Positions 4,658 through 24,229 of a stretch of 64,000 bases of DNA are shown one piece after another. Origin of the DNA: Bdellovibrionales bacterium (GTDB lineage Bacteria; Bdellovibrionota; Bdellovibrionia; Bdellovibrionales; Bdellovibrionaceae). A program made the position numbers and the translations under genes. Under the pieces are notes generated by a model that did not search any database, was not told the origin of the DNA, and worked only from the letters and a program-made list of their open reading frames with translations. The stretch lies in NCBI GenBank assembly GCA_018266295.1, contig JAFEAQ010000004.1, positions 62,001 to 126,000 of the forward strand, in the 5' to 3' direction. Position 1 is the stretch's first letter. The number at the start of each line of letters is the position of its first letter.

Positions 4658-6943
4658 ATGCTTTGGATCCTTCAGATCCTTTTCGCTTTTCAGTTTCAAG
4701 CTTCTAGCTACGCTGCTGATATCCCGGCAGATCTCTACACTGAAAAAATTCAACCGATCTTTAGTAACCGCTGCGTTGCTTGTCATAGTTGCATGAATGC
4801 TCCTTGCCAGCTGAACTTGCAAAACTATGAAGGCTTCTTGCGTGGGGCAAATAAGCTCAATGTCTACAATGGCACCCGAATTGATGCTGTCGCTCCCACT
4901 CGCCTGTGGATTGATGCTCACTCTGTCGAGGGCTGGCAAATGCGCGGCTTCTATACCGTGAATAATTCCGTAGATCCCGAGACCAATATTTTCTTTCGAA
5001 CGATCGCCGCTAAAAATAATGAAAAATCGGTGCCGACGAAGATCGTTTCCGAAAGCCAGTACTGTGCTGCGAACCCAAAAGAGCAAAATGTCGGAATGCC
5101 TTATGCACTTCCAGCTCTCGAGAAAGATCAGGCGGAGACACTGGCAGCTTGGGTGAAAAAGGGGGCCCCGGGCCCAACAACTGAGACTTTGAAACTGCAA
5201 GCAGGTTTAACAAAAGAAACCCATAAGCAAATCAAAGAGTGGGAAAATTTCTTTAATCAGGGCGATAATCGCCATAAAGTCGTCAGCCGCTATTTGTATG
5301 AACACCTTTTCTTAGCACACTTGTATTTTCCCGAAGAGCCGCAGACATTCTTCCGGTTAGTCCGTTCAAGCACCGCGTGTTCAAAAGAAGTCTCTGAAAT
5401 CGCTACACGCCGGCCCAACGATAATCCCGGAGTCGAAAAGTTCTACTATTGCTTCAACAAGCTTCCAGGGGCCGTCGTTTCTAAAACGCATATCCCTTAT
5501 GAGGTCAGTCCAACAAAATTGAAACGACTCGAAGAGCTTTTCTTCAGCGGGGACTGGAAGGTGACCCGCCTTCCCACCTATAATTATCAAGAAGCAGAAA
5601 ACCCATTCTGGGCTTTTTCAGAAATTCCCGTGAAGGCACGCTATCAGTTCTTACTCGACGATGCTCAATACCAAGTTAGTACTTTTATCAAGGGCCCGGT
5701 TTGCAATGGCAGTGCTGCTGTAAATTCGATTCAAGAACAATTCTATGTGCTATTTATTAATCCTGAGTCCGAGTTAATGGTGAAGGCCCCTGGATTTCAG
5801 GACCAAGCTCAAAATATGCTAATTTTGCCGGGGGTTTGGGGCAGCGATATTAAGCTCGATAGCGCACCTGAGTTTTTAGGCAAACTCGTTGAGAACCGTG
5901 AAGAGTACCGCAACCTGCGCGCGAAATGGAAAAGACAACTTTTTCCTCAGGGTTATGCCCTGAAAGATGTGTGGGACGGCGAAGGCCATAATAAAAATGC
6001 TATCTTGACGGTGCTTCGTCATGACGACAATGCTGTTGTCATGAAAGGTGCTGTTGGCGATCTTTCCAAGACAATCTTTTTCTTGGATTATCCATTGTTT
6101 GAGCGCCTGGTGTACAACCTTGTTGTGAACTTCGATGTCTTCGGCAACGTCGGCCATCAACTCCTGACTCGCGTCTACATGGATATGATCCGCATGGAGG
6201 CGGAAGAGATTTATTTGTCGTTTATTCCTCCGAGTGAGCGGATCCCGGTTCGCAAAGCGTGGTATCAAGGACTCGCAACAGAACTCAAGATGAAATACTT
6301 TTTTCCTGTAACGAATCTCGAACTGCCAACAGGGATTTCCTATGAAAACCCGAAGCATGCAAAAAAGGAATTTATCGAGAAAGTGCTCTTTACACGTATG
6401 GATGAAAAGGTTCGCGGCGCCATGGATCCGATTAATTGGAAAACCTTGCATGCGCCAAAGGATATTCTTGTGGGTTTAAGCGAAACCGAAAAGCAGCTTC
6501 GCACGATAGCTTCTGTAAAAGCCACGGACAAAACTCCATTTTCTAGATTTTTCCCAGAAATCGCCATGCTGGTTATAAAAGAAAAAAACGGCGCCTCTAA
6601 AGTCTATAGCCTGATGCACAATCGCGAACATCAGAATATTTCATGGATCTTGGCGGAATCGCTGAGATTGGCTCCGAAGGAAGATACTTTGACTATCCGT
6701 GAAGGCTTCTGGGGTTCTTATCCCAATATGTTCTTCTCCGTGACTGAAGATCAAATCGGTAAATTTACTTCTCAAGTCCTTAAGATCAAGTCCGAGAAAG
6801 AATACAAAAAACTCGTTAAAGACTTTGGAGTTTCGCGTATGCAAGCGAATTTCTGGAACATCTATGACGAGGCCAATGCTCGATTTAAAAAAGAGGCGCC
6901 AACACAATTTGGCTACTTGGATTTAACCCGCTACGAAATGTAA
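4658..6943 (+). CDS. cti: Fatty acid cis/trans isomerase, periplasmic haem protein
   Basis: 761 residues from ATG 4658, preceded by AAAGGAG; the upstream TTG at 4634 overlaps no better site and is rejected. A signal peptide (about residues 1-20) leads into a cytochrome-c-type site CVACH at residues 39-43, followed by the family-typical C-x-L-N-L-x-x-Y-E-G-x-x-R-G-A. The long remainder matches the Cti family pattern (TRLWIDAHSVEGWQMRGFY, QYCAANPKEQNVGMPYALP, HNREHQNISWI). The known enzyme converts cis to trans unsaturated fatty acids in membrane phospholipids to stiffen the membrane under solvent or heat stress. Length agrees with the family (about 760-780). A TfoX-like gene converges directly on its stop. 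Confidence 0.92.
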   Translation: MLWILQILFAFQFQASSYAADIPADLYTEKIQPIFSNRCVACHSCMNAPCQLNLQNYEGFLRGANKLNVYNGTRIDAVAPTRLWIDAHSVEGWQMRGFYTVNNSVDPETNIFFRTIAAKNNEKSVPTKIVSESQYCAANPKEQNVGMPYALPALEKDQAETLAAWVKKGAPGPTTETLKLQAGLTKETHKQIKEWENFFNQGDNRHKVVSRYLYEHLFLAHLYFPEEPQTFFRLVRSSTACSKEVSEIATRRPNDNPGVEKFYYCFNKLPGAVVSKTHIPYEVSPTKLKRLEELFFSGDWKVTRLPTYNYQEAENPFWAFSEIPVKARYQFLLDDAQYQVSTFIKGPVCNGSAAVNSIQEQFYVLFINPESELMVKAPGFQDQAQNMLILPGVWGSDIKLDSAPEFLGKLVENREEYRNLRAKWKRQLFPQGYALKDVWDGEGHNKNAILTVLRHDDNAVVMKGAVGDLSKTIFFLDYPLFERLVYNLVVNFDVFGNVGHQLLTRVYMDMIRMEAEEIYLSFIPPSERIPVRKAWYQGLATELKMKYFFPVTNLELPTGISYENPKHAKKEFIEKVLFTRMDEKVRGAMDPINWKTLHAPKDILVGLSETEKQLRTIASVKATDKTPFSRFFPEIAMLVIKEKNGASKVYSLMHNREHQNISWILAESLRLAPKEDTLTIREGFWGSYPNMFFSVTEDQIGKFTSQVLKIKSEKEYKKLVKDFGVSRMQANFWNIYDEANARFKKEAPTQFGYLDLTRYEM

Positions 6944-7842: not shown

Positions 7843-9234
7843 ATGGGTTTTAAAATGATTTCTCCCGCGCAATTAGAAATTCTGTTGCGGCGGTTTGAAA
7901 TTCGTCTATCGCAATACTGTGCTGCCCGATTTAAGTGGCTCACTCCTCTGGCGGCGGCGCTTCTGGTTCTCTTGGCATTTTGGATTAAGTCACTCATTGA
8001 AGTGGACCCAAAGGGTTTACAAAACTCCGGCATGTTCTCGTTTATCCGCCATGCCCGCTATGTCATGCCTTTTCTTCTGGCGGGTGCTGGTATCTCCATT
8101 TTCTTCCATCGCAAAAGTCGGGCTTATTATACGACGGCCGTCACAGTGGTCGCATGGGCATTTAATTGCTACATGCTTTTTCTTGGCAAAGTGCCCATGG
8201 ATGTTTTTATCTGCATCCTTTTTTCTTTGCCGGTAAATTGCATCTTTACTTACTATTTGGGTATGAACCGCCGTGAAGGCAAACCTCGCGTGAAGCTCTC
8301 AATAGGAATGATCGCATACTTTGCTTTGACATGGATTTACGTCAGTACACGACTCTACTCCCAGGATGACTACGGCCAGCTGCTCTTGTTTTGGAATTTC
8401 AAACTTCAGTACATGATTCTTGTCGCGGTTCAGTTGGCCTACGCTTTTTCTCCTCGGCCGGTGGATCCATTTCTTGCTTATAATCCGGTGACGGCAGCTC
8501 ATAGTATTTTATGGCCCGTGACGACTTTGCTAGCAAGGCGAAACCGCGCCGCGATTTCACGCTTCTGGTGGAGTGGATTTTGGGGCGTGCTCCTAGGGTA
8601 CGTGATAATTTATCTGCGCATTCAATTGGATAAATCAGATTTAGATGTCTCTAAGAATCTCTTTATTCGCTCGACCTCGCGCTATTTTTTGCTGATCCTC
8701 TCTGACGTTGGTGTTTTCAATCTCGTGACGGGTGTTGCAAGACTTTACGGTTACAGGGTCCGTGATGCGACGAACTTTTCTTGGCTGGCTCGGACTCCGG
8801 CAGAGTACTGGCGCCGCGGCAGCGTTTACCACTACGAATTTATTAATAGATATCTTTATCTTCGCTTGTGGAAACGTATCCGCATCCGCTTTGTCGTCGC
8901 CTTCGTTTGCTTCTTTTTCTTTTATGTAATGAAAAATGGCGCTCTGGATGTAGGGATTATGTTCCTGAATTGGATGGGTGCTGATATCCATGGTGAGTTC
9001 TATCGTAACCCCGACACCCGCTATTCGGTGATTTTATTCTTGCTGCATTTTCTTTTGTTATATACGACTCAACGATACTGGTTTTTTGAGTGGTCACATC
9101 AAAAGAAAGTTTGGCAATCGTGGGCTTCAGTTCTAGCAACCTATGCCCTGCAAATATCGGCGATTGCTCTTGCCGTTTTGCTGAACACTTATGGTCATCG
9201 TTGGTTGATGCATCTTTGGAAAATGCTTACTTAA
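7843..9234 (+). CDS. Polytopic membrane protein with an MBOAT-like motif
   Basis: 463 residues, about ten hydrophobic segments. The start is ATG 7843 or 7855 (MGFKMIS...); neither has a strong ribosome site. Around residues 310-345 the run NFSWLARTPAEYWRRGS, then YEFINRYLYLRLWKR, resembles the cytosolic loop of membrane-bound O-acyltransferases (pattern: N-F, then F/Y-W-R-R, then Y-L-Y-x-x-L). I do not see an unambiguous catalytic His in the usual helix context, so the assignment is tentative. It might acylate a cell-wall or surface polymer. It converges on DAHP synthase with an 8-base overlap. Confidence 0.5.
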   Translation: MGFKMISPAQLEILLRRFEIRLSQYCAARFKWLTPLAAALLVLLAFWIKSLIEVDPKGLQNSGMFSFIRHARYVMPFLLAGAGISIFFHRKSRAYYTTAVTVVAWAFNCYMLFLGKVPMDVFICILFSLPVNCIFTYYLGMNRREGKPRVKLSIGMIAYFALTWIYVSTRLYSQDDYGQLLLFWNFKLQYMILVAVQLAYAFSPRPVDPFLAYNPVTAAHSILWPVTTLLARRNRAAISRFWWSGFWGVLLGYVIIYLRIQLDKSDLDVSKNLFIRSTSRYFLLILSDVGVFNLVTGVARLYGYRVRDATNFSWLARTPAEYWRRGSVYHYEFINRYLYLRLWKRIRIRFVVAFVCFFFFYVMKNGALDVGIMFLNWMGADIHGEFYRNPDTRYSVILFLLHFLLLYTTQRYWFFEWSHQKKVWQSWASVLATYALQISAIALAVLLNTYGHRWLMHLWKMLT

Positions 9235-10039
9235 TTTTGGTCAGTGGGCGATCTAAAGCTTTGGTGACTTTTTTTACTTTAGACATCATGTTTTTGAAAT
9301 CATCAAAAGTCAGTGCTTGAGGTCCGTCAGAAAGGGCTTCCGCAGGACAAGGATGTACTTCCACGATAATACCGTCAGCGCCCGATGCGGCCGAGGCAAT
9401 TGCAAGATCTGGAACGAGCGCACGAATACCGACGGCATGCGATGGATCGACAATGACCGGAAACGATGTATTCTTTTTGACGTAAACCACGGCATTTAAA
9501 TCGAGAGTGTTACGAGTCGCTGTTTCAAACGTTCGAATTCCGCGCTCGCAGAGAATGACGTTTTCATTGCCACCGTTTGTGATGTACTCGGCTGCTTTAA
9601 TCCATTCATCGATCAGAGCGGCAAAGCCACGCTTTAAAAGCACCGGTTTCTTCTGCTTACCCAGCTCTTTTAAGAGCGAGTAGTTAAACATATTACGAGC
9701 GCCAACTTGAAACATATCGACGAAATCATAGACCTCTTCGATTTGCTCCGTGTCGGTAATCTCCGAAACAAGACCCATGTTCGTTTCTTTTAAGACTTCA
9801 CGAACAAAATCAAATGAGCTTTCGCCCAAGCCTTGAAAGGTCTTCGAAGAAGTGCGCATCTTCCAAATACCCCCGCGGAGCAAGCACGCCCCATTGGTTT
9901 TCACTGTCTGGGCTGTATCTAGAAACTGTTTTTTACTCTCGATGGAACACGGGCCTGCAATGACCGAGAAGCTTTCTCCGCCGACTTCCACGGCTCCATA
10001 AGCTGTTTTGATTGTCACAACACGTGTTGAGGGGTTCAT
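9227..10039 (-). CDS. aroF: 3-deoxy-7-phosphoheptulonate (DAHP) synthase, type I-beta
   Basis: 270 residues, the size of the short I-beta class without an N-terminal regulatory domain. Signature segments are AGPCSIES (residues 28-35), LLRGGIWKMRTS, the GARNMFNYSLLKELG helix, ILCERGIRTFE, and the C-terminal VDPSHAVG and GIIVEVHP strands with the metal-binding His and Cys. The enzyme condenses phosphoenolpyruvate and erythrose-4-phosphate, the entry step of the shikimate pathway. Some members of this class carry a fused chorismate mutase. Here the mutase is a separate gene, divergently placed 181 bases away, which ties both to chorismate/prephenate supply. No strong ribosome site precedes the ATG. 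Confidence 0.93.
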   Translation of the reverse strand: MNPSTRVVTIKTAYGAVEVGGESFSVIAGPCSIESKKQFLDTAQTVKTNGACLLRGGIWKMRTSSKTFQGLGESSFDFVREVLKETNMGLVSEITDTEQIEEVYDFVDMFQVGARNMFNYSLLKELGKQKKPVLLKRGFAALIDEWIKAAEYITNGGNENVILCERGIRTFETATRNTLDLNAVVYVKKNTSFPVIVDPSHAVGIRALVPDLAIASAASGADGIIVEVHPCPAEALSDGPQALTFDDFKNMMSKVKKVTKALDRPLTKIK

Positions 10040-10220
10040 ATAATTAAGTATCGGTAAATATTAGCGTTGCCTCAAGCACTCTCTCACTGAAACAAACAAA
10101 GTTGATGTTGCCGGGTACTTTCCGAATTGTGGAAGCTCGCACTAGGTCTAGCGCCCTCTCATTTTTGCACTGGTTATTCACGCGGAGGAGTATAATAATT
10201 ATTAAACAATAGAGGGGATT

Positions 10221-10517
10221 ATGAGCAAAAACGATGCTGCACTGGCCTTACAAGAACTGAGAAATCAGATCGACCAGATAGACAATCAAATTGCCGAAGC
10301 CCTGAATAAACGTGCTGCCATCGTCGAAGAAGTTTGGACGTTGAAACAACAAAACCAATTCCCCTTCATTGACCAAGGCAGAGAAAATGCCATCTTCGCT
10401 CGAGTTCGCTCGCTCGCTAAAGAGCCTCTGATGGCGGATTCGATGCAAAACATCTTCCAATGCATTCTCAACGAAGTCCGACCAAGAATTAAGAGCGCAA
10501 AAGCAAAATCAGGATAA
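10221..10517 (+). CDS. Chorismate mutase, AroQ class
   Basis: 98 residues, all-helical AroQ fold. The N-terminal helix has the pattern LRNQIDQIDNQIAEALNKRAAIVEEV, with the conserved basic residues that hold the substrate carboxylates. The loop FIDQGRENAIFARV corresponds to the D-x-x-R-E motif. It converts chorismate to prephenate. No prephenate dehydratase or dehydrogenase domain is attached, so free prephenate is the product. The ATG at 10221 follows GAGGGGATT. It is first of a tight six- or seven-gene run, three bases from a fused protein whose C-half resembles CmoA, an enzyme that consumes prephenate. That pairing is the main clue to the cluster's chemistry. Confidence 0.88.
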   Translation: MSKNDAALALQELRNQIDQIDNQIAEALNKRAAIVEEVWTLKQQNQFPFIDQGRENAIFARVRSLAKEPLMADSMQNIFQCILNEVRPRIKSAKAKSG

Positions 10518-10520
10518 AAA

Positions 10521-11993
10521 GTGGCCGCTAAAAACGTAAAGAAAAAAACACCCTTCGAAGTTGAACCTGGCTTCTACTTAGAAGACAACCGCAATCAGCG
10601 CGCTGTCGTCCCCGTCACAAAAGAAACTCTTGAAGCAAAGCACGCAGCCATCATGCCTGAATGGCTTGTCGAAGGAAAAAGTGTGCTCGACTTAGGATGC
10701 TGCCTGGCGGCGACAGGGCATTGGTGTCTTTCTTACGGCGCTAAAAAGTACACCGGTGTGGAACTTCAGCCTGAGTATGCTAAGAAAGCCAAAGAACTTC
10801 TTGGTAAGCATTGGTCGAAGGATCAGTTTGAAATCGTCCAATCTGAAATCTCTGATTTTCTCGCTGAAGTCAAAAAAGGTGAATACGACATCGTAATGAT
10901 GGCCGGTGTTCTTTATGTCTTTCTCGATTATTTTTCGGTTCTTGAGAAAATGACATACGCCTCGAAAGAATGGGTTTTGCTTGAATCCATTATGCCACAA
11001 AAGAATTTAGATCCTGAAACTCCTTACGTTGAATTCGTGAGCAAACAAACAATCACTTTACCGAACGGCCAAGAACGTGCCCGAGGTATCGGCAGTCGTG
11101 TTAGCCCCGGCGGTCTAAAGATGGTGATGGAGCACTTTGGTTTTACAAGCCAAGAAGGTGTTATTACTCCGGCGGCAGTAAAAGGAACTCACGACGCTTT
11201 CAATGAAGTGATTCCCGGCTGGAAATCTCCGGTTCGTTTCATGATGCGCTTTCAAAAAGGCGGCGCTAAAGTCGCCGACCTCGCTGAAGAACTTAAAACT
11301 GGCAAGTTCAAGCAGCCGAAAGCTGGATTTGACGAGTATAAACCAGGTACGAAATTGAAGGCCGGCTCTTGGCAGTTTAACGATAAGGTAGCGGATGAGT
11401 TTGAGAATATCGCTCTGACTTCGATCCCACGCTATAAAGAAGTCATCGGCATGTGCGTCGAGATTGCGACCAAGGCTTATCCGGATAAGAAATGCCGCAT
11501 TCTTGATGTGGGTTCTGCTATTGGAAAAACCATGGATGAATTCCATAAGAGCGGTTTCACAGATGTTTGGGGTGTTGAAAAGTCCGAGGCCATGATCAAG
11601 GGATCTAAATATAGCGATCATGTTATTCACTCTGACACTTTCCCTCGTGGACAAAAGCCATTCCACATTGTTTGCGCGAATTGGACTCTTCATTTCGTCA
11701 AAGAGCGTAAGGCCTATTTGGAAGATATCTACAATGGTCTTGAGAAAGAGGGCTTCCTCATTCTGTCTGATAAAACTCAGGGAAATCCGTTCCTTCTCGA
11801 TCTGTATCATGATTTTAAGCGCCGGAATGGTTTGACCGAACAGCAGATTGCAGACAAAGCGGAATCTATCAAAGGTGTCCTCGAGCCTTATCCTTTGAAT
11901 TGGTATTTGACCGAGTTGAAAAACATCGGTTTTAGCGAAGTTCACGTGATCAATGCTTACTATCACTTCACGACCTTTTTGGCGCGTAAGTAG
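10521..11993 (+). CDS. CmoB-like/CmoA-like fusion, predicted carboxy-SAM-dependent protein
   Basis: 490 residues, two Rossmann methyltransferase halves; GTG start three bases after the mutase stop. Half 1 (1-250): motif I VLDLGCCLA at 55-63. Compared from memory with E. coli CmoB, KTPF (9-12), GVLY (129-132) and the SPVRFMMR stretch (Arg239) line up with the segments holding CmoB Lys91, Tyr200 and Arg315, the Cx-SAM-binding residues. Half 2 (280-490): WQFNDKVADEF, LDVGSAIG, NWTLHF and HDFKRRNGLTEQQI (430-443) line up with CmoA, which makes Cx-SAM from SAM and prephenate. CmoA Arg199 falls on Ala447, so this half may have altered chemistry. CmoB's first 80 or so residues are absent. A plain double methyltransferase is the alternative. 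Confidence 0.72.
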   Translation: MAAKNVKKKTPFEVEPGFYLEDNRNQRAVVPVTKETLEAKHAAIMPEWLVEGKSVLDLGCCLAATGHWCLSYGAKKYTGVELQPEYAKKAKELLGKHWSKDQFEIVQSEISDFLAEVKKGEYDIVMMAGVLYVFLDYFSVLEKMTYASKEWVLLESIMPQKNLDPETPYVEFVSKQTITLPNGQERARGIGSRVSPGGLKMVMEHFGFTSQEGVITPAAVKGTHDAFNEVIPGWKSPVRFMMRFQKGGAKVADLAEELKTGKFKQPKAGFDEYKPGTKLKAGSWQFNDKVADEFENIALTSIPRYKEVIGMCVEIATKAYPDKKCRILDVGSAIGKTMDEFHKSGFTDVWGVEKSEAMIKGSKYSDHVIHSDTFPRGQKPFHIVCANWTLHFVKERKAYLEDIYNGLEKEGFLILSDKTQGNPFLLDLYHDFKRRNGLTEQQIADKAESIKGVLEPYPLNWYLTELKNIGFSEVHVINAYYHFTTFLARK

Positions 11994-12037
11994 TTTTATA
12001 TTGATCGCTAAATTTGTTTTTGAGACAGTTTATATCT

Positions 12038-12736
12038 ATGGAAGAAGCTGAGGTTAGAGTCTCACGTAGAAGTCTTTGTATCTTGTGGCATTTGAAATCA
12101 AAAAGAATTCTCTGCGTAACTCAATACACTAGTACCGCTCAAGCACTGATGTCTTCAGAAATGGAGATGGGTTTTAATATTATCTCCGGAGCAAAACCTA
12201 TTCTTCACTCCAAAGATACAGTGGGATATTTGAGAAGTATTCCGCCGGAAGAGCTGCCGAACTATCTTTTTCATCGTCAATCCGGAGCTGTCGTAAAAAT
12301 TAAAAATCCAAAACCCATAACGGAAAAGCAGAAAAACACCTGCATTCTGCTTGCAGGGCGCGCTCGTTATCTCCGCCGCGTAACTCGTGTGGTTAGTCAG
12401 GCTCGTAAGCGCGTGGCACCTTCAGAACTCTATGGGGAGCTCGTTGACTATATTCGCCGCGAACAAGCGTTGAAGTTTCGCGCATCTGGATACAATGAGG
12501 ATCTCATTCAAGAATGTCTCTTTGTGTTTCAGTATGCTCAAGTGAAAAAGATCACTCCTCGGGCTGCGGCTGATGAGGTTATCTTCCGCTTTAGTTTATT
12601 TCAAGCTGACTTGTGGAAAACGGAAGAGGTGAAGCTGAAGTATTACGACCTCTTTGCCAATGCCGCAAATTTAGAAGACCTTCATGATATTTTTCAAGAT
12701 TTCATCAGGGAGTATTATTTAAATTCCCATGTCTAA
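12038..12736 (+). CDS. Unknown protein of the prephenate/PP-loop cluster (first of two)
   Basis: 232 residues from ATG 12038; a TTG at 12014 would add eight residues without a better ribosome site. I do not recognise a family. The N-terminal part is mixed alpha/beta (RSLCILWHLKSKRILCVTQY), the middle is basic (GRARYLRRVTRVVSQARKR, a candidate nucleic-acid or phosphate contact), and the rest is helical, ending NAANLEDLHDIFQDFIREYYL. No signal peptide or membrane segment. The stop overlaps the next start by eight bases, implying translational coupling to the first PP-loop gene. The shape weakly resembles the protein at 14872-15444 (same N-terminal strand pattern and a C-terminal NAA-containing helix), so they may be distant paralogues. 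Confidence 0.75.
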   Translation: MEEAEVRVSRRSLCILWHLKSKRILCVTQYTSTAQALMSSEMEMGFNIISGAKPILHSKDTVGYLRSIPPEELPNYLFHRQSGAVVKIKNPKPITEKQKNTCILLAGRARYLRRVTRVVSQARKRVAPSELYGELVDYIRREQALKFRASGYNEDLIQECLFVFQYAQVKKITPRAAADEVIFRFSLFQADLWKTEEVKLKYYDLFANAANLEDLHDIFQDFIREYYLNSHV

Positions 12737-13838
12737 GAATATCTTTATCTATAATCCCATGCTCATTACTAAGAAAAAGTTGCAGGATCTGCCGGGGATC
12801 CGGGCTTTCCGGCAGGCGTTTAATCTCTTTAATGAGAACGTCGTCTTGATTGATCGCACTCACACCATTCAAGTGCCGGTAAATGTCGCGGTCCACGCCC
12901 CTATTCCAGAGTTTCGTAAGATTGATAAATCTTACGAGCAAATTTGTGATGAACGCGCACAAGAGCTTCTTCGCCGTTCTGACGAGCATGATCTGCCGAT
13001 TAATGTTTTCTATTCCGGTGGCATTGATTCAACACTTGTGATGGTTTCTCTTTTAAAAAATGCGACGGAAGAACAGAAAAATCGTATCTGTGCTTTTATG
13101 TCCCAAGAATCAATTAACGAGAACCCAGCCTTCTACCGCGATCATCTCCGTGGCAAAGTAAAACTCGAAGCTGCTGCAGTTTATCCTTACGCACTCTCTA
13201 AACGAGCTCTCTTTGTTGGCGGCGAGTACAATGATCAAATCTTTGGTTCAGCCCTATTTAAAGACTTCCTAGATGTGCATGGCGAAGAAGCCCTTGCGAA
13301 GAAATATAGTCGCAATCAAATGGCACAGATGTTTGGCAGAAAGTGGCATAATGATGCCGTGATCTCTTGGTACATGGATCTTTTTGAAAAGGTTCGTGCT
13401 GCGGCTCCGTGCCCGGTTGAATCCAACGCGGATTTCTTATGGTGGATTAATTTTTCTTTGAAGTGGCAATCGGTCTATTTCCGAATGCTGACCTACGCTT
13501 CAGATTTTGTTGTTCACAATATTGACCGTGATTTCATCGATAACTATTTCTTTCACTTCTATGGCACCGATGATTTCCAGCTCTGGTCCATGGGAAATCC
13601 TGACAAGCGCGTTGTCACCAAATGGGAATCTTATAAGCAAGAAGCGAAAGATGTGATTTATCGCTTCAATAAAGATTCAGACTATCGTGATTTTAAAACC
13701 AAGAACGGTTCGCTTGCTTGGGTCATTATGCATCAGATTCAAAAGAACTTTATTGATGATCAGATGCATATGTATATGACTCTGCCGCGCACAGATTGGT
13801 TTAATCCTAATAATAGCTTTAAGGACGCTCCATTCTAA
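12729..13838 (+). CDS. Asparagine-synthase-like PP-loop ATP ligase without glutaminase domain (copy 1)
   Basis: 369 residues. The ATP-pyrophosphatase loop SGGIDST lies at 96-102, and GGEYNDQIFGS at about 175-185 corresponds to the G-E-x-x-D-x-x-F-G motif of asparagine synthetase B-type synthetase domains. The first 95 residues are too short and lack an N-terminal Cys, so there is no glutamine amidotransferase domain. Such proteins adenylate a carboxylate and need ammonia or another nucleophile from elsewhere. A motif WWINFSLKWQ and the tail FQLWSMGNPDKR...KWESYKQEAK recur in the next gene, showing the two are paralogues. The asparagine-synthase fold is also used by beta-lactam and lasso-peptide cyclases, so the product need not be an amide of aspartate. 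Confidence 0.8.
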   Translation: MSKNIFIYNPMLITKKKLQDLPGIRAFRQAFNLFNENVVLIDRTHTIQVPVNVAVHAPIPEFRKIDKSYEQICDERAQELLRRSDEHDLPINVFYSGGIDSTLVMVSLLKNATEEQKNRICAFMSQESINENPAFYRDHLRGKVKLEAAAVYPYALSKRALFVGGEYNDQIFGSALFKDFLDVHGEEALAKKYSRNQMAQMFGRKWHNDAVISWYMDLFEKVRAAAPCPVESNADFLWWINFSLKWQSVYFRMLTYASDFVVHNIDRDFIDNYFFHFYGTDDFQLWSMGNPDKRVVTKWESYKQEAKDVIYRFNKDSDYRDFKTKNGSLAWVIMHQIQKNFIDDQMHMYMTLPRTDWFNPNNSFKDAPF

Positions 13839-13841
13839 AAT

Positions 13842-14882
13842 ATGGAAAAACTCTTAAATCTAAGCTTTAAAACTGGCCGAAGTCTTAAGAGTATAATCTC
13901 TCAAGAGGATCTTTTATTCGATCCCTTTGATAAAGCGATCAGCCGCCTTAAGTACAAGCCAGATTTTTTTAACTACGATCTTCAATCGGAAACAGTGGCT
14001 AGTATTCAAGAGATTGGTAAAGCAAAGACGTGGGAAGAATGCTGTGCCGAAAGAGCTTTGAATCTGTTGAAACTTGATTATGAAAACTATTGGTTCGCCT
14101 ACAGCGGCGGCATCGATAGCACCGGAATGCTCACTTCGATTCTGAAATTCTGGCCGGCAAAAGAACTTTCTCGCGTGTCCGTTGTGCTCACTCACCACTC
14201 TGTCGAAGAAAATCCGTTCTTCTTTGATAAGTATGTTGTGAAGTTCAATCTTATTAATACTCTTCGCCCGCTTTCGAAAATGCTGCTCAAGGGTCATACC
14301 CTGATGGTGACGGGTGAACTGGGCGATCAACTCTTTGGCTCGGACATTCTGGGTGCCGGTAGTCGCCAGTATGGGGATGAAGTTCTTTTTAAAAACTATA
14401 AAGACGTGGCTCCACAGATCATCGAAGCATACATCGGCACCAAGGGACCTGGAAAAAGTATTTTTGAGCACTTTCATCCGATTGTTGAGGAATCTCCTTT
14501 TCCGATTAAAACGGCCCACGACTTTTTCTGGTGGCTGAACTTCTCGCAGAAATGGCAGCACGTGAAATTTCGTTTTATCGAGAGCACGAGTTGGGACTTG
14601 AAGGCTAAATATGGCAGTCATATCCAGCACTTCTACGATAGCCCGAGCTTCCAGAACTGGAGCTTACAGAATCATGATCTGAAAATCCGCAATACTTGGC
14701 AGTCTTATAAATTCACGGCGAAAGAATACATCGCAGATTTTTCGAAAGACCCGGGCCAGTTGAATCTAACGAAGATTCAAAGCCTGGAGAAAACCTATGT
14801 CATTGATGAAAAACGTATTGGCGTAGATTCAAACTACAAACCGATTCAAACTTTTGAGGAGCTCAAGCACTATGTCAGATAG
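13842..14882 (+). CDS. Asparagine-synthase-like PP-loop ATP ligase without glutaminase domain (copy 2)
   Basis: 346 residues, three bases after copy 1. PP-loop SGGIDST at 88-94 and TGELGDQLFGS farther on match the synthetase motifs; WWLNFSQKWQHVKFRF and FQNWSLQNHDLKIRNTWQSYK are shared with copy 1. As in copy 1 there is no N-terminal cysteine glutaminase. Both copies keep the ATP-binding residues, so neither looks like a dead partner. Two different carboxylates or a heterodimer are both possible. The stop overlaps the next start by 11 bases. No ribosome site of its own is obvious, which suggests coupling to copy 1. Confidence 0.8.
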   Translation: MEKLLNLSFKTGRSLKSIISQEDLLFDPFDKAISRLKYKPDFFNYDLQSETVASIQEIGKAKTWEECCAERALNLLKLDYENYWFAYSGGIDSTGMLTSILKFWPAKELSRVSVVLTHHSVEENPFFFDKYVVKFNLINTLRPLSKMLLKGHTLMVTGELGDQLFGSDILGAGSRQYGDEVLFKNYKDVAPQIIEAYIGTKGPGKSIFEHFHPIVEESPFPIKTAHDFFWWLNFSQKWQHVKFRFIESTSWDLKAKYGSHIQHFYDSPSFQNWSLQNHDLKIRNTWQSYKFTAKEYIADFSKDPGQLNLTKIQSLEKTYVIDEKRIGVDSNYKPIQTFEELKHYVR

Positions 14883-15444
14883 AGTGAAGCTCTTCATTTA
14901 TACAGATGCTAAAACCCACCGCGTGCTCTTTACGAAGCGAAGTACGAAGTTTAACTTCTTGGTAGGCATCCAGGGCGTTTATGTGCATATACTTAGTTCC
15001 CGGCTTGAGCTGCCCGAAATTAAACCGTTAACTCAGACTTATCAGCCGAAAGCGGGGCTTAAAAAGGCCTCCTCGAAACTGAGTAAGCCAGAGCAAGAAC
15101 GTCTTGGTGTTTTGCGCAGAAAGGTCGAGATCGTTATCTTAGTGCTGACGAGCCTCTATATTATGCGTGATGAGATTAAGGCAAGCTTCACGAAAAGTGT
15201 TTTGGAGAACACTCCGATAAGTTCAGGCAGCTTCAAAAAGTACTGGCTCTTTGTAGCCGAGGAAAAGAAGCTATTATTTGCGCGGCTTCAAAAGTTCAGA
15301 AAAAATTTTTCTACGGCGGTCAATGCTGCAGAAACCCTCGACCAGGTGGATGCTCTTTATGAGCATATGCGTTTTAATGTAAATCTTGGGGTTTACTCGG
15401 TGATGAATAGAGAGAGAAAGGGCCTCCATGGCACAAAAAGTTAA
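14872..15444 (+). CDS. Unknown protein of the prephenate/PP-loop cluster (second of two)
   Basis: 190 residues from ATG 14872, which overlaps the preceding stop; an in-frame start at 14854 lies inside that gene and is less likely. No known family. The N-terminus is a short beta pattern (VKLFIYTDAKTHRVLF), the centre is basic, a hydrophobic helix VEIVILVLTSLYIM lies near residue 85-98, and the C-terminal third is helical with NAAETLDQVDALYEHM. It is not convincingly membrane-bound. Faint resemblance to the 12038-12736 product suggests a mirrored pair: unknown, ligase, ligase, unknown. Overlaps the carrier-protein gene by 17 bases. Confidence 0.75.
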   Translation: MSDRVKLFIYTDAKTHRVLFTKRSTKFNFLVGIQGVYVHILSSRLELPEIKPLTQTYQPKAGLKKASSKLSKPEQERLGVLRRKVEIVILVLTSLYIMRDEIKASFTKSVLENTPISSGSFKKYWLFVAEEKKLLFARLQKFRKNFSTAVNAAETLDQVDALYEHMRFNVNLGVYSVMNRERKGLHGTKS

Positions 15445-15766
15445 CATTGAGCTCTTAAAGAAGGCCATATTGGAAGTAAACCCGCGTGTGCGTACGATGA
15501 ACTTCACCGCACAAACGGACCTCTTTGAAGAGGGAATTCTCGATTCATATTCGGTGATTCAGCTGGTGAATACCTTTGAGGAACGATTTGGCATCGTCTT
15601 CGACTATGGAGACCTAAAGGCGGCCTATTTTAGAAACCTCATGAGCCTGATGGGCATCCTTACGACAAAGTATAAAGTCGAAGAGGGCAAGAATCTGCCC
15701 GGCACCGGAAAGAAGAAGGCGGCCAAAAATGCGGGCGCCGCCAAGAAAGCAAAAAAGAAAACCTAA
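15428..15766 (+). CDS. Acyl/peptidyl carrier protein-like with basic tail
   Basis: 112 residues. Residues 5-85 have carrier-protein layout: helix 1, then TDLFEEGILDSYSVIQLVNTF, where Asp39-Ser40 occupies the place of the D-S-L phosphopantetheine attachment motif at the head of helix 2, followed by EERFGIVFDYGDL. If Ser40 is modified, the cluster's substrate is carried as a thioester. Residues 90-112 form an unusual Lys/Ala-rich tail (KKKAAKNAGAAKKAKKKT), not normal for acidic carrier proteins and perhaps a tether to RNA, a membrane or a partner. ATG 15428 lies inside the previous gene. Last gene of the run; it overlaps the converging cupin gene by four bases. Confidence 0.78.
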   Translation: MAQKVNIELLKKAILEVNPRVRTMNFTAQTDLFEEGILDSYSVIQLVNTFEERFGIVFDYGDLKAAYFRNLMSLMGILTTKYKVEEGKNLPGTGKKKAAKNAGAAKKAKKKT

Positions 15767-16419
15767 AATTTAGTGAACGTTCGATTCAACATCGGATGAG
15801 AATCATCTGTCGGCCCGGTATCTGAATCCGGATGGAAGGCGATGATTTTCAATTTGCTGTCGAAAGAATTGAACGAGTGAACCAAACCTTCTGGCAAATA
15901 GAAGGCCATGCCTGGCTTCAGAGGAAGTTTCTGATTCGGCATCACGCACTCCCCTTCACCTTCAAAGACGACCCCGAGACGAATCGTCGGATGAATGTGC
16001 GGCGTTTGAATCACTTTTGGTGGGAACACTAAAAGATTGAAAACCGGATCCCCCATACGTGGCGGCGGAATAATGATCGTCGTATTCGAGTTATCGATAT
16101 AGCAGAGACGGCCGCTATCTTCGACGGGGCCACCGACATGGAGAAGCCCGCGATATCCGACGCGCTCGATGACGATGATTTCACCGTCGCCTTTGATGTG
16201 GAGTGGACCCGGCGCAGAGAAGTACATGCCGCCCTGAAGAGTGACGTAGTGTTGGCCTTGGCGCTGGAGTTCATATTTTCCATTGAGAACGAACCCAAAG
16301 TAGGTGCTTGTCGGGAGCGAAAAATTCTCATCACAACGCCCGAAGCCTTTTAAGACACTCGGATACATAGTGGCAGACGCATCTAAAACACATCCTTCTT
16401 TAACCATCTTGTAAATCAT
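15763..16419 (-). CDS. Cupin-fold protein, probable bicupin
   Basis: 218 residues with two half-barrels. The first is residues 30-95 (GFVLNGKYELQ, GGMYFSAPGP) and lacks the full His set. The second is residues 130-200, with QTPHIHPTIRLGVVFEGEGE, GMAFYLPEGLVHSF and the His residues expected for metal binding (H-x-H and a late His). Cupins of this kind are metal-dependent dioxygenases, isomerases or sugar/acid-binding proteins; the reaction cannot be read here. GGGGAG precedes the ATG. It converges on the carrier-protein gene, and whether it belongs to the same pathway is open. Confidence 0.78.
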   Translation of the reverse strand: MIYKMVKEGCVLDASATMYPSVLKGFGRCDENFSLPTSTYFGFVLNGKYELQRQGQHYVTLQGGMYFSAPGPLHIKGDGEIIVIERVGYRGLLHVGGPVEDSGRLCYIDNSNTTIIIPPPRMGDPVFNLLVFPPKVIQTPHIHPTIRLGVVFEGEGECVMPNQKLPLKPGMAFYLPEGLVHSFNSFDSKLKIIAFHPDSDTGPTDDSHPMLNRTFTKF

Positions 16420-16501: not shown

Positions 16502-17467
16502 CTAGATTGGTTTAGCTCTTTTTGCCTTTTTAGGCGCATTTTTTGACTTCTGCGCCTCTATTTTAAGCTTTTCTTCATTCTCTTTTTTATTTTTTTCCAT
16601 AACCAAATAGCTCGAAATCATCGGCTTAATAATTTGAAAGCTTTTATTGATCCCAGACGAGTTCAATATGTTGCGAGATCCACTTACAAGATTATCTGAA
16701 CGCAAAAGTTGAAAAAACTCAGCGGGAAGCAGTTGGTAATTTAAACCAGAATAAGACAAGTAATCTTTAATCTTTTCTTTACCAACATTCGCCCCTTGGA
16801 AGAACATTTGTGCTAGAGAAGAATTTAAAGCATTATCCGAAAATATCTCGCGGCTATATTTAGTTCTTTCCGGAGAGATAAGAAAAATAATTTTTTCCTT
16901 ATCCTTTAACAAAAATTTTAAGACTTGATACGGAGTAAAACTTATATCTAGATAGAACTCTGTTTCGTCAGAAGAAGAGTCTTCATTCTTCCAGTGTTTA
17001 TTCAAACGATTCTGAATAAATATGGCTCTTTTTATCGGCATTATAAAAGAGAAATTAGGCAAAAGTGTTCTAGACCAACCCGGTTGATATTTCAAAATTT
17101 CATCTTCAGAGAAAAAATCTCGAGTCAGCGCTTTATTAGGTAGGTTTTTGCTTAGCAAAATCTCCTCAAAATCCTTAGCAAGAAGCCGCGATGACTCAAT
17201 ATAAAAAATATAATCCGGCTGTGCGGTCTTTAGCTCTTCTTGAAGAGAATAGTACTGACTGAGAGCAAATCCTTTTCCAGTTTTTATTTCAACTTTTACC
17301 GGCTCTGCAAGAGAGTTCTGTAAATAGGACTCTAAATTTTCAATTCCAGCTTTTAGCTCGGGGCTCTCTGTGCTCCAAATTTCAGGCGCAACAATCCATA
17401 CCAATGATTGATGATCTGCATGAGCCTGAAAACAAAGAAAAATTATCGAAAAGAATATGTATTTCAA
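16502..17467 (-). CDS. Secreted protein of unknown function at the end of the pilin-like locus
   Basis: 321 residues. The TTG start at 17467 overlaps the stop of the rhodanese-like gene (TTGA arrangement) and follows GGGGAG, so translation is coupled. A signal peptide ends HADHQ. The following region (LESYLQNSLAEPVKVEIKTG, then LKTAQPDYIFYIESSRLLA) is faintly like the first lobe of PhnD-type periplasmic binding proteins, but I would not assign it. A highly basic, Lys/Ala-rich tail (KNAPKKAKRAKPI) ends the protein. DNA here is noticeably A+T-rich compared with the flanks. It is the last gene of the minus-strand series running from 26898. Confidence 0.72.
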   Translation of the reverse strand: MKYIFFSIIFLCFQAHADHQSLVWIVAPEIWSTESPELKAGIENLESYLQNSLAEPVKVEIKTGKGFALSQYYSLQEELKTAQPDYIFYIESSRLLAKDFEEILLSKNLPNKALTRDFFSEDEILKYQPGWSRTLLPNFSFIMPIKRAIFIQNRLNKHWKNEDSSSDETEFYLDISFTPYQVLKFLLKDKEKIIFLISPERTKYSREIFSDNALNSSLAQMFFQGANVGKEKIKDYLSYSGLNYQLLPAEFFQLLRSDNLVSGSRNILNSSGINKSFQIIKPMISSYLVMEKNKKENEEKLKIEAQKSKNAPKKAKRAKPI

Positions 17468-18777
17468 TATAGCTCCCCAGATTTGACCGCGCGATTTAAC
17501 TTATACAGCTCAGGGTGAAATAAGACCTTCTGTGCCCAATCTTTCATGCCCATACGATACCAGTAAATATTCTTATACCCTTTCGATTTTAAGTAAATAG
17601 CTGCCTTCAGAGGGCGCCAGTCGTATTCATTCTCGCCAACAAGGATGATATTCTTATTTGCACCAATCTGAATCTTTCCCTTATAACCTTCTTTATGCGA
17701 AACAAGGCCTTCGGCAGTTATAGAAGATCGGTACAATGGCATTGATAAAGCATTTCTTTTCTCTGGAAAACCCATTGGCTTGGCACCAACTAAAGAAAAT
17801 CTCTTCTCAGAACGAACATCTATCACCTCATTGTGCTTTTTATCTTGTATCATTTCCCGAACTTGGGAGGCCTCGAGAATCGGGGCCACTGGAGGCTTTT
17901 CAGGAGTTAAACATGGTTGTGCCTTTTTACCATACTCAGACATTCCCCCCGGAAACCAAGAAATATTCTTATAACCCATTGACGTTAAGAGAGTAATAGT
18001 GTTGTAGGCGGAGTACTCTCCAGGGCATCCTGAAATAATACTTATTGGCTCACTTTTATTCTTTGGTAGAGTATTTTTACTAAATCTGATTTTGAGCTTA
18101 GACATTTCCTCAGGAGATAAAATCTCAGATGCTATTCTCGTGTAGTCTATATACTCAAGAACATTCGCATACTTTAGGGGACCTTTCTTTTTCAATGCCG
18201 CAGGTCTAATATCGTAAGCATGATTATTTTTTACTTCGTCGACGAACTGCTTTTTCTTCAATGACTTCGCCGCGGGGTGAAACCTCGGACTACCACCCGT
18301 TTTCAAGCTGTCAGTTAATTTATCCGCCAAAACTGTGACTGCGATTATTGGTACTGAGTCTATTTCAGAAGCTTTCTTTCCAGTAAAATCTACCACTCGT
18401 TTCCTGAAATTGTTCATTTCCTTTTCAGTTGTCTTCGTTACTTCTCTTTTTTTATATTCAGAAAAATTGATATTTTCGACTTTTTGAACTTTAACCGTTC
18501 CTCGTGGAGCACGCCAGTAGACAAATCCATCACCATTCTTTGTTTCAAATAAGTTTATTTTTTGATTAGGTAAAAAGCATTTTTCTGTATCTACAAAATA
18601 GAGGGTCTCAGGCTTATTTTGAACGACCTTCCAAAATTTCACACTATTCATGTGAATACTCTTTTCAGCATTAGCAGCCGTACACTTCGACGGCGCCGCA
18701 GCACTCTTTTTATCAGCGGCGATAGCAAAGTTAAGAGAGGATGCAGTCACCATCATTATGGCGAAGATATACCGCAT
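17464..18777 (-). CDS. Exported rhodanese-like protein with two domains
   Basis: 437 residues from ATG 18777; another ATG at 18792 would overlap the upstream stop, and the frame extends farther upstream only inside that gene. A signal peptide (MRYIFAIMMVTASSLNFAIA) is followed by an unrecognised 200-residue region, then two rhodanese-like modules. The first holds ISGCPGEYSAYNTITLL plus MGYKNISWFPGGMSEY, so it keeps a Cys at the loop position. The second has NEVIDVRSE, NIILVGENEYD and GYKNIYWYRMGMKDW, where the loop has no Cys and is probably inactive. Rhodaneses handle sulphane sulphur or act as binding modules. It is located between the beta-propeller protein and a secreted unknown, so a periplasmic role in the same assembly is likely. 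Confidence 0.78.
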   Translation of the reverse strand: MRYIFAIMMVTASSLNFAIAADKKSAAAPSKCTAANAEKSIHMNSVKFWKVVQNKPETLYFVDTEKCFLPNQKINLFETKNGDGFVYWRAPRGTVKVQKVENINFSEYKKREVTKTTEKEMNNFRKRVVDFTGKKASEIDSVPIIAVTVLADKLTDSLKTGGSPRFHPAAKSLKKKQFVDEVKNNHAYDIRPAALKKKGPLKYANVLEYIDYTRIASEILSPEEMSKLKIRFSKNTLPKNKSEPISIISGCPGEYSAYNTITLLTSMGYKNISWFPGGMSEYGKKAQPCLTPEKPPVAPILEASQVREMIQDKKHNEVIDVRSEKRFSLVGAKPMGFPEKRNALSMPLYRSSITAEGLVSHKEGYKGKIQIGANKNIILVGENEYDWRPLKAAIYLKSKGYKNIYWYRMGMKDWAQKVLFHPELYKLNRAVKSGELY

Positions 18778-18782
18778 AAAAT

Positions 18783-21167
18783 TTATTTCCATTGAACAAG
18801 TCCCCCTGAAGTATCTAACGAATAAGTCATTTCCCCATTTTCGAACCAAGGGACAGAGCTTAGGCGATCACCAAGATTAATTCGTCGTAAAATATCGCCT
18901 TTTTTTGAATTGAAAATGCAAAGCTCCCGCTCAAAGCAGCCGGCAACCAGCTCTTCCTCAGGCTTAACTCCATCTTTAACTAATAACACAGGACTGGAGA
19001 AAAAAACTCCGCTCCCCTGATGCCGCCACATTTCTCTCCCGTTAGAAAAATTAAATGCAACAGTTCTGCCTGAAGATGTACTAATATACACAGCATCTTC
19101 TTTCTTAGACCACGTAGGAGAGCTTTGACAGGATCCCTCTAACGGGGAATTCCACAAAAGGTCTCCAGTTGAGGCCTTTAGCTTATAAATATTTTTGTCC
19201 CATGAACAAAAAGTAACTGAATCTCCAACAACCATGGGTGTTCCTTTAACGGCAAGACCCGTTGCATATTTCCAAACGATTTTTCCAGTTAAAGAGTCTA
19301 TGGCATTTATATATCCATTATTGCTTCCTACAAAAATCAAACTTCCATCTTCCGATAAAGCCGGAGAAGAATGCGCCTGCTCTCCTAACATCGAACTTTT
19401 CCACAGCATTTTTCCCGTCTTCGCATCAATCTTCGTCACAAATCCATCTGGAGGAGAGAATGTCTCTACAGAAACAAAAATAGCGCCATTACTATAGAGT
19501 GGCGAAGAACCGATTGTTTGTCCCAATGGCAAAAGCCAATTTGGTTTTCCATTGCCCTTATTTGCGGAGTACAAAATTCCATCATAGTCACCCCAAAATA
19601 CTGATTCGCCGACTATCATGGCAGTTCCATGGACTCCTCGGTTAGCTGACATTACCCAGCGCCAAACTTCACGGCCTGTCAAATCCATTGCCGAAAAGAA
19701 TCCTTGGTCAGACCCGGCATAGATCATTTTACCGTCAGATATCGGTGAGCTCTTACTAGCGCTATGACGAGAGTCATTCCAATTTGGTTTTCTCCAAATC
19801 GGCCTACTCATCGGGTGAATAAGTTCTTTTGTCTCTACAACACCCGTCCTTTGTGGATTTTCACGATACATTGCCGGGGAATTATTAGGATCTAATTTTG
19901 ATTCTTGATATTTCCAAGGCGAAATCTCTACTTCACTTTCAACGCTCTTCTTAATCCAAGAATTTGCCCAAAACGGATTAAAATGAGGTTCTTTCTTACA
20001 AACATCATTTATATCAACGATGGGTTGGAAATTTTGTTCACTACTCAATCTTGACTGCATGTGAATATCCACTACAGCAAAATCGTTATTCTTCTGGTAG
20101 TCCTCGCACAAGCGCCGCGCGAATTCTAGATACACATAGGGCTCGCAGCGTATACGCGTACCAAAACTCTCAAGATTCAACTGCATCTGAACATAATGTC
20201 CCATGCCTCGGTCGACCACAAAGGTGTGCCGGCAAACCGCCCGCGCATCAAACATATTGAGTGAGACAAGTCGACCTTCGCCAGTAAGAGCTGACTTTCC
20301 AGGTAAAATGAGTGGATAAATCTGCGCTAAAATGAAAAGCAACGAGAGAGTTCGGTGAGGCTTGTAACGCCATACACTTATAATGCTTGGCATGTCCGCG
20401 TGTTCTTTAGACATCAAAATGAAGATACTCAAAATGCAAAACATCACTGCAGGATAAAAAAGCCCCACGATTTGTATCGAGTAAATATGAAAGACAAAAA
20501 ACTGAAATAGCGCAAATTTCTGCCAAAAACGGTGACGGCTTAACAATAGAGAGGAAAAACCTAGCTCCAAAACAATAACATAGATAGTAGCCATTTGAAT
20601 TGGTATCCATTTCAAAGGGCCAATATCGCCATATAACGCACTTCCCGAAATCCACTCACTATTTAATTTTAGCAGACCAGCACCTAAATAGATTAGGACA
20701 ATTGAAATAGGAATCAGCTGTATCTTTCTTGGAACTAAGAGAAATAAGAGAATAAAAATAAAATGTATATAGTGAAAATTACCCATCAGACGGTAATCTT
20801 GGACATAGATGAAAATTTTAAAAAGCAGTACAAAATAAGAGTAGGAGTACGCTAGAGAAATAGATTTGCGTAGCCAAAGGACCGAGCCAATAGCGCCTAT
20901 AATAAAATAAAAGACAAGAATCCAACGCCAAAGAATCGGATTACCAAATCGATAGCTCTCACAAAATTGTAAAAAAGGCTGGCAAACTCCCGGAGTCGCC
21001 TTGCTAATGTAATTATAGACTTCACCAACAAAGAACCAGTAAGAAAAAGTAAAAAAATGAATAAGCGATAGAAGAAATCCGTATTTTCGCAAAACTGGCG
21101 AATTTTGGATTTCCTCTCTATTTTCTTGGAAAAAGAGTTTACCTTTTGCTAGCAAACCAAACGTCAA
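18783..21167 (-). CDS. HTTM-like membrane domain fused to a PQQ-type beta-propeller
   Basis: 794 residues. Residues 25-260 hold about seven membrane helices, with patterns (YLGAGLLKLNSEWISGSAL, FHIYSIQIVGLF) resembling the HTTM/vitamin-K-carboxylase-like membrane domain. Residues 455-794 hold at least six propeller blades of the PQQ type, each with a G-x-L/I-Y-A-x-D/N and a T-G-x-x-x-W signature (GREVWRW, GKPNWLL, GKMLWKS, GKIVWKYA, GDLLWNS, GREMWRH). The start codon appears to be TTG 21167 inside the upstream gene; a later start is possible. The propeller probably faces the periplasm. This is unusual as a fusion and sits beside minor-pilin-like genes, where PilY1 normally supplies the propeller. 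Confidence 0.75.
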   Translation of the reverse strand: MTFGLLAKGKLFFQENREEIQNSPVLRKYGFLLSLIHFFTFSYWFFVGEVYNYISKATPGVCQPFLQFCESYRFGNPILWRWILVFYFIIGAIGSVLWLRKSISLAYSYSYFVLLFKIFIYVQDYRLMGNFHYIHFIFILLFLLVPRKIQLIPISIVLIYLGAGLLKLNSEWISGSALYGDIGPLKWIPIQMATIYVIVLELGFSSLLLSRHRFWQKFALFQFFVFHIYSIQIVGLFYPAVMFCILSIFILMSKEHADMPSIISVWRYKPHRTLSLLFILAQIYPLILPGKSALTGEGRLVSLNMFDARAVCRHTFVVDRGMGHYVQMQLNLESFGTRIRCEPYVYLEFARRLCEDYQKNNDFAVVDIHMQSRLSSEQNFQPIVDINDVCKKEPHFNPFWANSWIKKSVESEVEISPWKYQESKLDPNNSPAMYRENPQRTGVVETKELIHPMSRPIWRKPNWNDSRHSASKSSPISDGKMIYAGSDQGFFSAMDLTGREVWRWVMSANRGVHGTAMIVGESVFWGDYDGILYSANKGNGKPNWLLPLGQTIGSSPLYSNGAIFVSVETFSPPDGFVTKIDAKTGKMLWKSSMLGEQAHSSPALSEDGSLIFVGSNNGYINAIDSLTGKIVWKYATGLAVKGTPMVVGDSVTFCSWDKNIYKLKASTGDLLWNSPLEGSCQSSPTWSKKEDAVYISTSSGRTVAFNFSNGREMWRHQGSGVFFSSPVLLVKDGVKPEEELVAGCFERELCIFNSKKGDILRRINLGDRLSSVPWFENGEMTYSLDTSGGLVQWK

Positions 21168-22698: not shown

Positions 22699-22699
22699 T

Positions 22700-23692: not shown

Positions 23693-23698
23693 AACTAC

Positions 23699-24229
23699 CT
23701 AGTTCGTGTTAATTAAAAAGTAGTAGTAGTTGTCCTGCAAATCGAGATCTTTAGGATCTTTTTTTAAATGGACAACACGTATTGTTCCTTCAAACATCCC
23801 AGAAAGACTCTGTGACGGTAAAATGGTATATGTAATTAGACCGTCACAAAATGAATCCGTTGGTAAATCAGTTCCATTGAGCGTAGCCGTCGCCGCCGGA
23901 TTAGTTGGATCGCACTTAGGCGGGTTACCGGCATTTCCCATATACATAATAGTCCCGCTATATCCGTAAGGAAAACTTGCCAAGAAACTCTGGCTATTAC
24001 CTGCATTAATATTAAAGTTTTTCTGATAAACTGCAGGCTCGCCTTTGATGGTCTCAATTAATTGGGAAACAACCTGATACTCAGAGCTAGTTCGCACTGT
24101 TTTACTATCAGTTTTAAACAGCTGAACACTTCCATCGACAATCATATAAAATACCAGCACGAGAAGTGCCATTGCCAACAAGTTCTCAATTACTGTCTGA
24201 CCATGGTTGTTTTTTATGAGATGTCTCAT
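23699..24229 (-). CDS. PilV-like minor pseudopilin
   Basis: 176 residues. The leader MRHLIKNNHG is followed by QTVIENLLAMALLVLVFYMIV; Gly10 is the prepilin cleavage position, the residue after it is Gln rather than Phe, and Glu+5 is kept. The rest is a small globular head with two Cys. It overlaps the large PilX-like gene by four bases (ATGA), an indicator of coupled translation. It is likely a minor pilin of the PilV/GspI type. A TadE-like assignment is the alternative but the Glu+5 argues for a type IV prepilin. Confidence 0.8.
   Translation of the reverse strand: MRHLIKNNHGQTVIENLLAMALLVLVFYMIVDGSVQLFKTDSKTVRTSSEYQVVSQLIETIKGEPAVYQKNFNINAGNSQSFLASFPYGYSGTIMYMGNAGNPPKCDPTNPAATATLNGTDLPTDSFCDGLITYTILPSQSLSGMFEGTIRVVHLKKDPKDLDLQDNYYYFLINTN

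Follow-up and report, generated by a model that had tools for sequence, protein, structure and literature searches.

We propose that a short run of genes in the genome of a Bdellovibrionales bacterium is probably a self-contained carboxymethylation module, centered on a fused protein with one CmoB-like and one CmoA-like half that directly follows a stand-alone chorismate mutase (CM). The genes lie in a 64,000-nucleotide stretch of one contig, called the window here. An initial annotation had suggested that prephenate from the mutase is dedicated to carboxy-SAM, and this prediction is supported as the best reading of the locus: the genome's sole CM precedes its sole CmoA homologue, prephenate dehydratase (PDT), prephenate dehydrogenase (PDH), U32 peptidase-family proteins and CmoB were not found in it, and the pairing of CM with cmoA recurs elsewhere. 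What the sequence itself shows is the order of the genes, the identity of their domains, the lack of other recognizable prephenate users and the repeated pairing; the chemistry that we build on them below is predicted.

Results

The mutase and the 490-residue fusion lie at the coordinates and in the reading frames first assigned to them, three bases apart (Table 1). The CM gene runs from an ATG at 10221 to a TAA ending at 10517 and encodes a 98-residue product that passes the PF01817 cut-off of 27 bits (E 2.9e-21, 75.9 bits). Five of six catalytic residues are shared with E. coli CM in the alignment (Arg11, Arg28, Lys39, Arg51 and Glu52); the sixth, Gln88 of the E. coli enzyme, is Ile here, and most stand-alone CMs of relatives likewise have no Gln at this position. 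The fusion gene opens with a GTG at 10521 and continues for 490 unbroken codons to 11993. An AGGA within the 3' end of the CM gene, ahead of this start, is a plausible ribosome site of the fusion. A gene for DAHP synthase (DAHPS) diverges from the CM-fusion pair, and the region between them is presumed to hold the promoters of both transcription units; a search of that region for a consensus promoter found none. This gene is the second DAHPS copy of the genome; the other is at the menaquinone locus (C8), where its neighbors are a UbiE-like gene and one for a chorismate-binding, isochorismate-synthase-like protein. Because the two copies are identical at 217 of 270 residues (80%) and each is about 63% identical to the DAHPS of one relative, the window copy looks like a duplicate that arose within this lineage.

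Table 1. Predicted features of the locus, with window coordinates and the evidence for each.
Feature	Coordinates	Strand	Evidence
DAHP synthase (DAHPS), type I beta	9227..10039	-	PF00793 E 4e-70; PRK08673 over cut-off
Divergent intergenic region	10040..10220	.	Gene layout
Stand-alone AroQ-type chorismate mutase (CM)	10221..10517	+	PF01817 75.9 bits; single genome-wide match
N-half of fusion, CmoB-like carboxymethyltransferase domain	10521..11306	+	K34, Y132, R239 aligned to CmoB K91, Y200, R315
C-half of fusion, CmoA-like carboxy-SAM synthase domain	11307..11993	+	Profile, PDB sequence, predicted fold
X, protein of unknown family	12014..12736	+	About 20-45 bases after fusion; homologue in same order in G018
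Asn1, asparagine-synthetase-like PP-loop enzyme without glutaminase domain	12729..13838	+	SGGIDST loop; PF00733 E 0.06
Asn2, second asparagine-synthetase-like PP-loop enzyme	13842..14882	+	SGGIDST loop; PF01171 E 0.02
Y, protein of same operon	14854..15444	+	Homologue in same order in G018
Acyl carrier protein (ACP), ..GILDS.. phosphopantetheine site	15428..15766	+	PF00550 over cut-off, DltC-like

Pfam places two class I methyltransferase domains in the fusion, and the proposed kinship of the C-half with CmoA is firm. Residues 280-490 match the CmoA family TIGR00740 (E 6e-28) at 98 bits, below the equivalog cut-off for tRNA CmoA (193 bits), and the C-half is matched by phrog_4752 of PHROGs (E 4.6e-43); a PDB sequence search returned YecO and CmoA as best matches. 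The AlphaFold2 model of this half has pLDDT mostly above 90, and the structure closest to it is E. coli CmoA (4gek; Foldseek TM 0.8 by target; VIA Z 26.0 over 207 residues, rmsd 2.4), whose fold covers the whole domain. Profile search and structure prediction alike rank CmoA above unrelated methyltransferases. Five residues of the fusion (S301, Y305, K418, K433 and K446) belong to CmoA-specific motifs and are invariant across 47 sequences, and the Arg ahead of the S-P-x-Y motif is lost.

In E. coli CmoA the carboxyl group of carboxy-SAM is touched by Arg199 only (PMC4482062). At this position (fusion residue 447) the C-half has Ala, whereas the examined CmoA orthologues of the phylum all have Arg; position 203 in E. 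coli numbering (fusion residue 451) is Lys. We considered and rejected the view that without Arg199 the enzyme must be inactive. SpCmoA of phage S-B43 is an active carboxy-SAM synthase with a kcat of 2.33 per s, tenfold faster than E. coli CmoA (PMC12783734), and our alignment gives it Glu199 and Arg203, so that a missing Arg199 is not disqualifying. Across 208 CmoA homologues, a basic residue occupies 199 or 203 in 204: 48 combine Arg199 with a non-basic residue at 203, 156 have Arg or Lys at 203 and no Arg199, and 4 fit neither class. A CmoB gene is a neighbor in 32 of the 48 loci of the 199-type and in 1 of the 156 of the 203-type, and 59 of the latter have a CmoX-type DNA methyltransferase as neighbor. 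Phage and non-tRNA homologues have thus exchanged the carboxylate-binding Arg199 of tRNA CmoA for a basic residue, Arg or Lys, at 203, and having neither is almost never seen; the residue at 203, one helical turn away, presumably takes over the carboxylate. The Ala199/Lys203 pair of the window fusion fits the 203-type class, on a very long branch where Lys203 could have arisen by chance and where the only near tree neighbor, an Aeromonas phage protein, has a basic residue at neither position. Separately, a Burkholderia stagnalis plasmid (L104:3060-8684) carries in a row genes for a DUF692 protein, a CmoA homologue (Thr199/Lys203), an 867-residue methyltransferase and a radical SAM protein, an order reminiscent of 3-thiaglutamate clusters.

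The N-half is a divergent class I methyltransferase, and its proposed likeness to CmoB stands residue by residue but is weak by score. Its best named family matches are CpaM (E 4e-7) and TIGR04290, and the CmoB profile (NF011650) gives E 0.002 and 17 bits, short of a cut-off of 209. Lys91, Tyr200 and Arg315 of CmoB grip the carboxylate of carboxy-SAM (PMC4482062). In an alignment with CmoB proteins, K34, Y132 and R239 of the N-half fall on these three residues, and the motif P..K.........I..EW around Lys91 is kept with the exact CmoB spacing; a separate hhalign run placed K34 and Y132 alike, with a probability of 20%. As a control, the same kind of alignment was made for 101 other sequences. 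All three residues are present in 19 of them, all from cmoA loci of the phylum, and 5 more have only the Tyr and the Arg. Since these 24 come from phylum cmoA loci, 32 of which carry a CmoB gene, we took them as true CmoB and left 77 as non-CmoB; by this split of our own, none of the 77 has the three residues together. About 30 residues precede the P..K motif in the N-half, compared with 87 in E. coli CmoB, and the long N-terminal domain (about 100 residues) is missing. Given the low score and the missing domain, yet three kept residues, we describe the N-half as working like CmoB rather than as being CmoB. A model of the N-half (mean pLDDT 51) has CmoB as its top structure match, a circular result since the model was built on CmoB rows. 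Homology to CmoB would rest on the three residues and the short motif, and is not proven by statistics.

The fusion architecture has no second case in 369 genomes of the phylum, 50,697 phage records and 72,556 plasmid records. With the fusion itself as query, genome and viral contigs yielded one viral match (L078), which is not a clear relative, and a viral scan with a broad CmoA alignment gave no pattern. The fused CmoB-like/CmoA architecture seems to be new, and its chemistry of a known kind.

The genome measures 4.22 Mb and is 99.99% complete, and our genome-wide statements come from family searches. By these, the window CM is the only CM and the C-half the only CmoA homologue above trace level. 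Neither PDT nor PDH, each present in 14 of 14 control genomes, gave a match anywhere in the genome; the same holds for CmoB (PF08003), and no Peptidase_U32 protein was found. TrhP and RlhA belong to the U32 family, and their RNA hydroxylations need prephenate (PMC6599085). With PDT, PDH, U32 and CmoB all missing, the fusion is the only recognizable consumer of prephenate within these searches, which do not extend to PheC-type dehydratases. Among 39 relatives, a CM is found in 15 of the 16 genomes that have U32 or PDH and in 0 of the 23 that have neither (Fisher p 6e-10, an overstatement because the genomes are related). Stand-alone CM genes lie beside Peptidase_U32 genes in relatives without PDH (L089, L090, L093 and relatives). 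The window genome, which has a CM and neither partner, would be an exception to this rule unless the fusion is the partner.

CM or a DAHPS-CM fusion occurs beside cmoA independently in phages and at three other bacterial loci. Scans seeded with 203-type CmoA covered 80 phage and 80 bacterial loci. On phage contig L178 a stand-alone CM (5631-5894) lies just after cmoA and directly before a DNA C5-methyltransferase gene, and in phages L185 (3833-4819) and L210 (632-1579) a DAHPS-CM fusion stands between the same two genes. In one phage clade of eight contigs, three carry a CM or DAHPS-CM insert, and in five cmoA is followed directly by the methyltransferase gene. The same DAHPS-CM precedes C5-methyltransferase genes at a contig edge (L215:118-1065), and phrog_10027, listed as of unknown function, matches the phage CMs of the L178, L185, L210 and L215 set. 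Among the bacterial loci, CM matches occur in three, each time as the immediate neighbor of cmoA, a count with no formal background rate: in two Gemmatimonadota loci (L250, L252) the DAHPS-CM and cmoA genes are neighbors in divergent orientation, and in the Olavius algarvensis Delta 4 symbiont (L267) they lie in tandem. The initial annotation held that cmoA is not tied to CM in known bacteria, and in the E. coli pathway CM is unlinked. Its chemical idea stands up better than evidence from one locus could show. In the text consulted from the literature naming both CmoA and chorismate mutase, we found no description of such a linkage. Neither DAHP nor a mutase is mentioned in PMC12783734, which leaves open the availability of prephenate in phage hosts, a question to which phages with their own CM or DAHPS-CM offer a partial answer. 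ICMT/PEMT-like membrane methyltransferase genes stand beside cmoA on a Rhizobium plasmid (L114:3929-5451) and beside DAHPS-CM in one Gemmatimonadota locus (L250:5491-6234); their products are candidate carboxymethyltransferases.

Downstream, the genes X, Asn1, Asn2, Y and ACP follow on the strand of the fusion, spaced or overlapping by no more than about 45 bases, and no terminator-like site is found on the plus strand from CM up to where Asn1 starts. X has no match in Pfam, NCBIfam or PHROGs. Asn1 has a 56% identical homologue in genome G018, and Asn2, which also has no glutaminase domain, has homologues in G018 and G198; phmmer detected no recognizable homology of either to phage CmoY. In G018 the same five genes directly follow a homologue of the membrane protein at 7843-9234, with no DAHPS, CM or fusion there, and searches of that genome for CM, U32 and PDH found none. 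The DAHPS-CM-fusion cassette therefore most likely joined, or dropped out of, a pathway that already existed, as a tailoring step, and the operon needs no carboxymethylation in general.

Further observations concern the surroundings of the operon. The membrane protein at 7843-9234 (also L079:8976-10331) carries the motif NF..L.R...YWRR......NRYLYL near a DltC-like carrier protein; by eye it resembles MBOAT O-acyltransferases such as DltB, and our searches gave no profile or PDB support. Compact clusters at L081:6206-9613 (G027) and L082:7934-11304 (G022) unite a cupin gene, related to window 15763-16419, with PP-loop, X-like and Asn1-like genes. A run of minus-strand genes at window 16502-26958 has a GC content of 0.35-0.46, below much of the window.

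Discussion

Based on these data, we propose that the extra DAHP synthase would push carbon into the shikimate pathway and that the stand-alone CM would convert chorismate to prephenate. The C-half would then form carboxy-SAM from prephenate and SAM, and the N-half of the same polypeptide would transfer the carboxymethyl group to an acceptor; we infer both of these catalytic activities of the fusion. More speculatively, the acceptor would most likely be an intermediate or product of the co-directional X-Asn1-Asn2-Y-ACP operon, and Asn1 or Asn2 could amidate the new carboxylate. Such a role would be CmoY-like by analogy, as phage CmoY amidates the carboxymethyl group of carboxymethylcytosine with glycine (PMC12783734).

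It is also conceivable, though unlikely, that the fusion is a compact tRNA enzyme, in which CmoA and a shortened CmoB make cmo5U34 from the hydroxyuridine supplied by TrhO. The match of the N-half residues to CmoB, the TrhO-type gene (PF17773) in the genome and the absence of a separate CmoB are all in keeping with such an enzyme. However, TrhO is present in 33 of 40 relatives and the fusion in none of them, most of the N-terminal part of CmoB is missing (about 30 versus 87 residues), a CmoB neighbor accompanies 203-type CmoA in a single locus of 156, and the fusion sits within a biosynthetic-looking operon.

We consider it improbable that the CM is a housekeeping enzyme for phenylalanine and tyrosine beside two ordinary SAM methyltransferases fused by chance. 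CM is a common family, and generic methyltransferase Pfam families are the first matches of both halves, but CmoA is the best structural and profile match of the C-half, above unrelated methyltransferases. The PDT and PDH that such a role would call on are absent here and both present in all 14 control genomes, with the non-homologous PheC outside the search, and the recurrence of CM or DAHPS-CM beside cmoA elsewhere speaks against this reading. Just as improbable is a C-half that no longer makes carboxy-SAM and has become an ordinary methyltransferase or taken on a regulatory or binding role, with the CM serving something else. The very long branch would fit such a decay, as would the loss of Arg199 and of the Arg that precedes the S-P-x-Y motif, whereas the CmoA-specific S301, Y305, K418, K433 and K446 are kept, Lys203 occupies the alternative position used by the active phage enzyme, and the searches found no other prephenate user for the adjacent CM.

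Returning to the carboxymethylation module, its fullest form would be a new carboxy-SAM-dependent biosynthetic pathway, in which one polypeptide, fed by a dedicated DAHPS and CM, makes carboxy-SAM and spends it on an acceptor, either a small molecule or bound to a carrier, which the paired asparagine-synthetase-like enzymes then amidate. More generally, a dedicated prephenate supply by CM or DAHPS-CM would be a recurring, unreported part of carboxy-SAM systems. We hold this combined proposal tentatively, with somewhat less than even confidence. Few pathways are known to use carboxy-SAM, and those compared here have a synthase and a transferase that are distinct proteins and draw their prephenate from general metabolism. 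If the proposal is true, a single enzyme uniting both activities, with a prephenate supply of its own, would be a ready-made carboxymethylation tool. The pairing of DAHPS or CM with cmoA offers an easy way to spot new carboxy-SAM pathways in genomes, and the 199/203 switch a test to tell tRNA-type from other carboxy-SAM synthases.

Among the closest known systems is the E. coli CmoA/CmoB pathway to tRNA cmo5U34 (PMC4482062, PMC6599085), which shares with the window the formation of carboxy-SAM from prephenate and SAM, predicted here, and the CmoB carboxylate-binding residues that align with the N-half. There, however, CmoA and CmoB are separate genes, CmoA has Arg199, CmoB has its long N-terminal domain and CM is unlinked, whereas the window has one fused protein with Lys203 and adjacent CM and DAHPS genes, in a genome with no CmoB and no U32. 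The phage 5-carboxymethylcytosine system CmoA-CmoX-CmoY (PMC12783734) likewise brings a 203-type synthase, a carboxymethyltransferase and asparagine-synthetase-like enzymes into one neighborhood, and by our analysis some phage loci also have CM or DAHPS-CM. It differs in that CmoX is a DNA C5-methyltransferase, while the window has a CmoB-like transferase in one chain with the synthase, and in that CmoY is not recognizably related to Asn1 or Asn2. The TglE/TglF pair of 3-thiaglutamate biosynthesis and MccS/MccB of microcin C (PMC10491745, PMC9239234) also employ carboxy-SAM outside tRNA, in biosynthesis, and TglF keeps the CmoB residues. Unlike the window fusion, synthase and transferase are separate proteins in both; we had considered MccS as a fused transferase-synthase and rejected it on this ground. 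Neither a peptide precursor nor a DUF692 gene was seen in the window locus. Finally, bifunctional DAHP synthase-chorismate mutases of the PRK12595 type place both supply activities beside a carboxy-SAM synthase, as at L250, L252 and L267 and in phages L185 and L210, whereas in the window DAHPS and CM are two separate, divergent genes.
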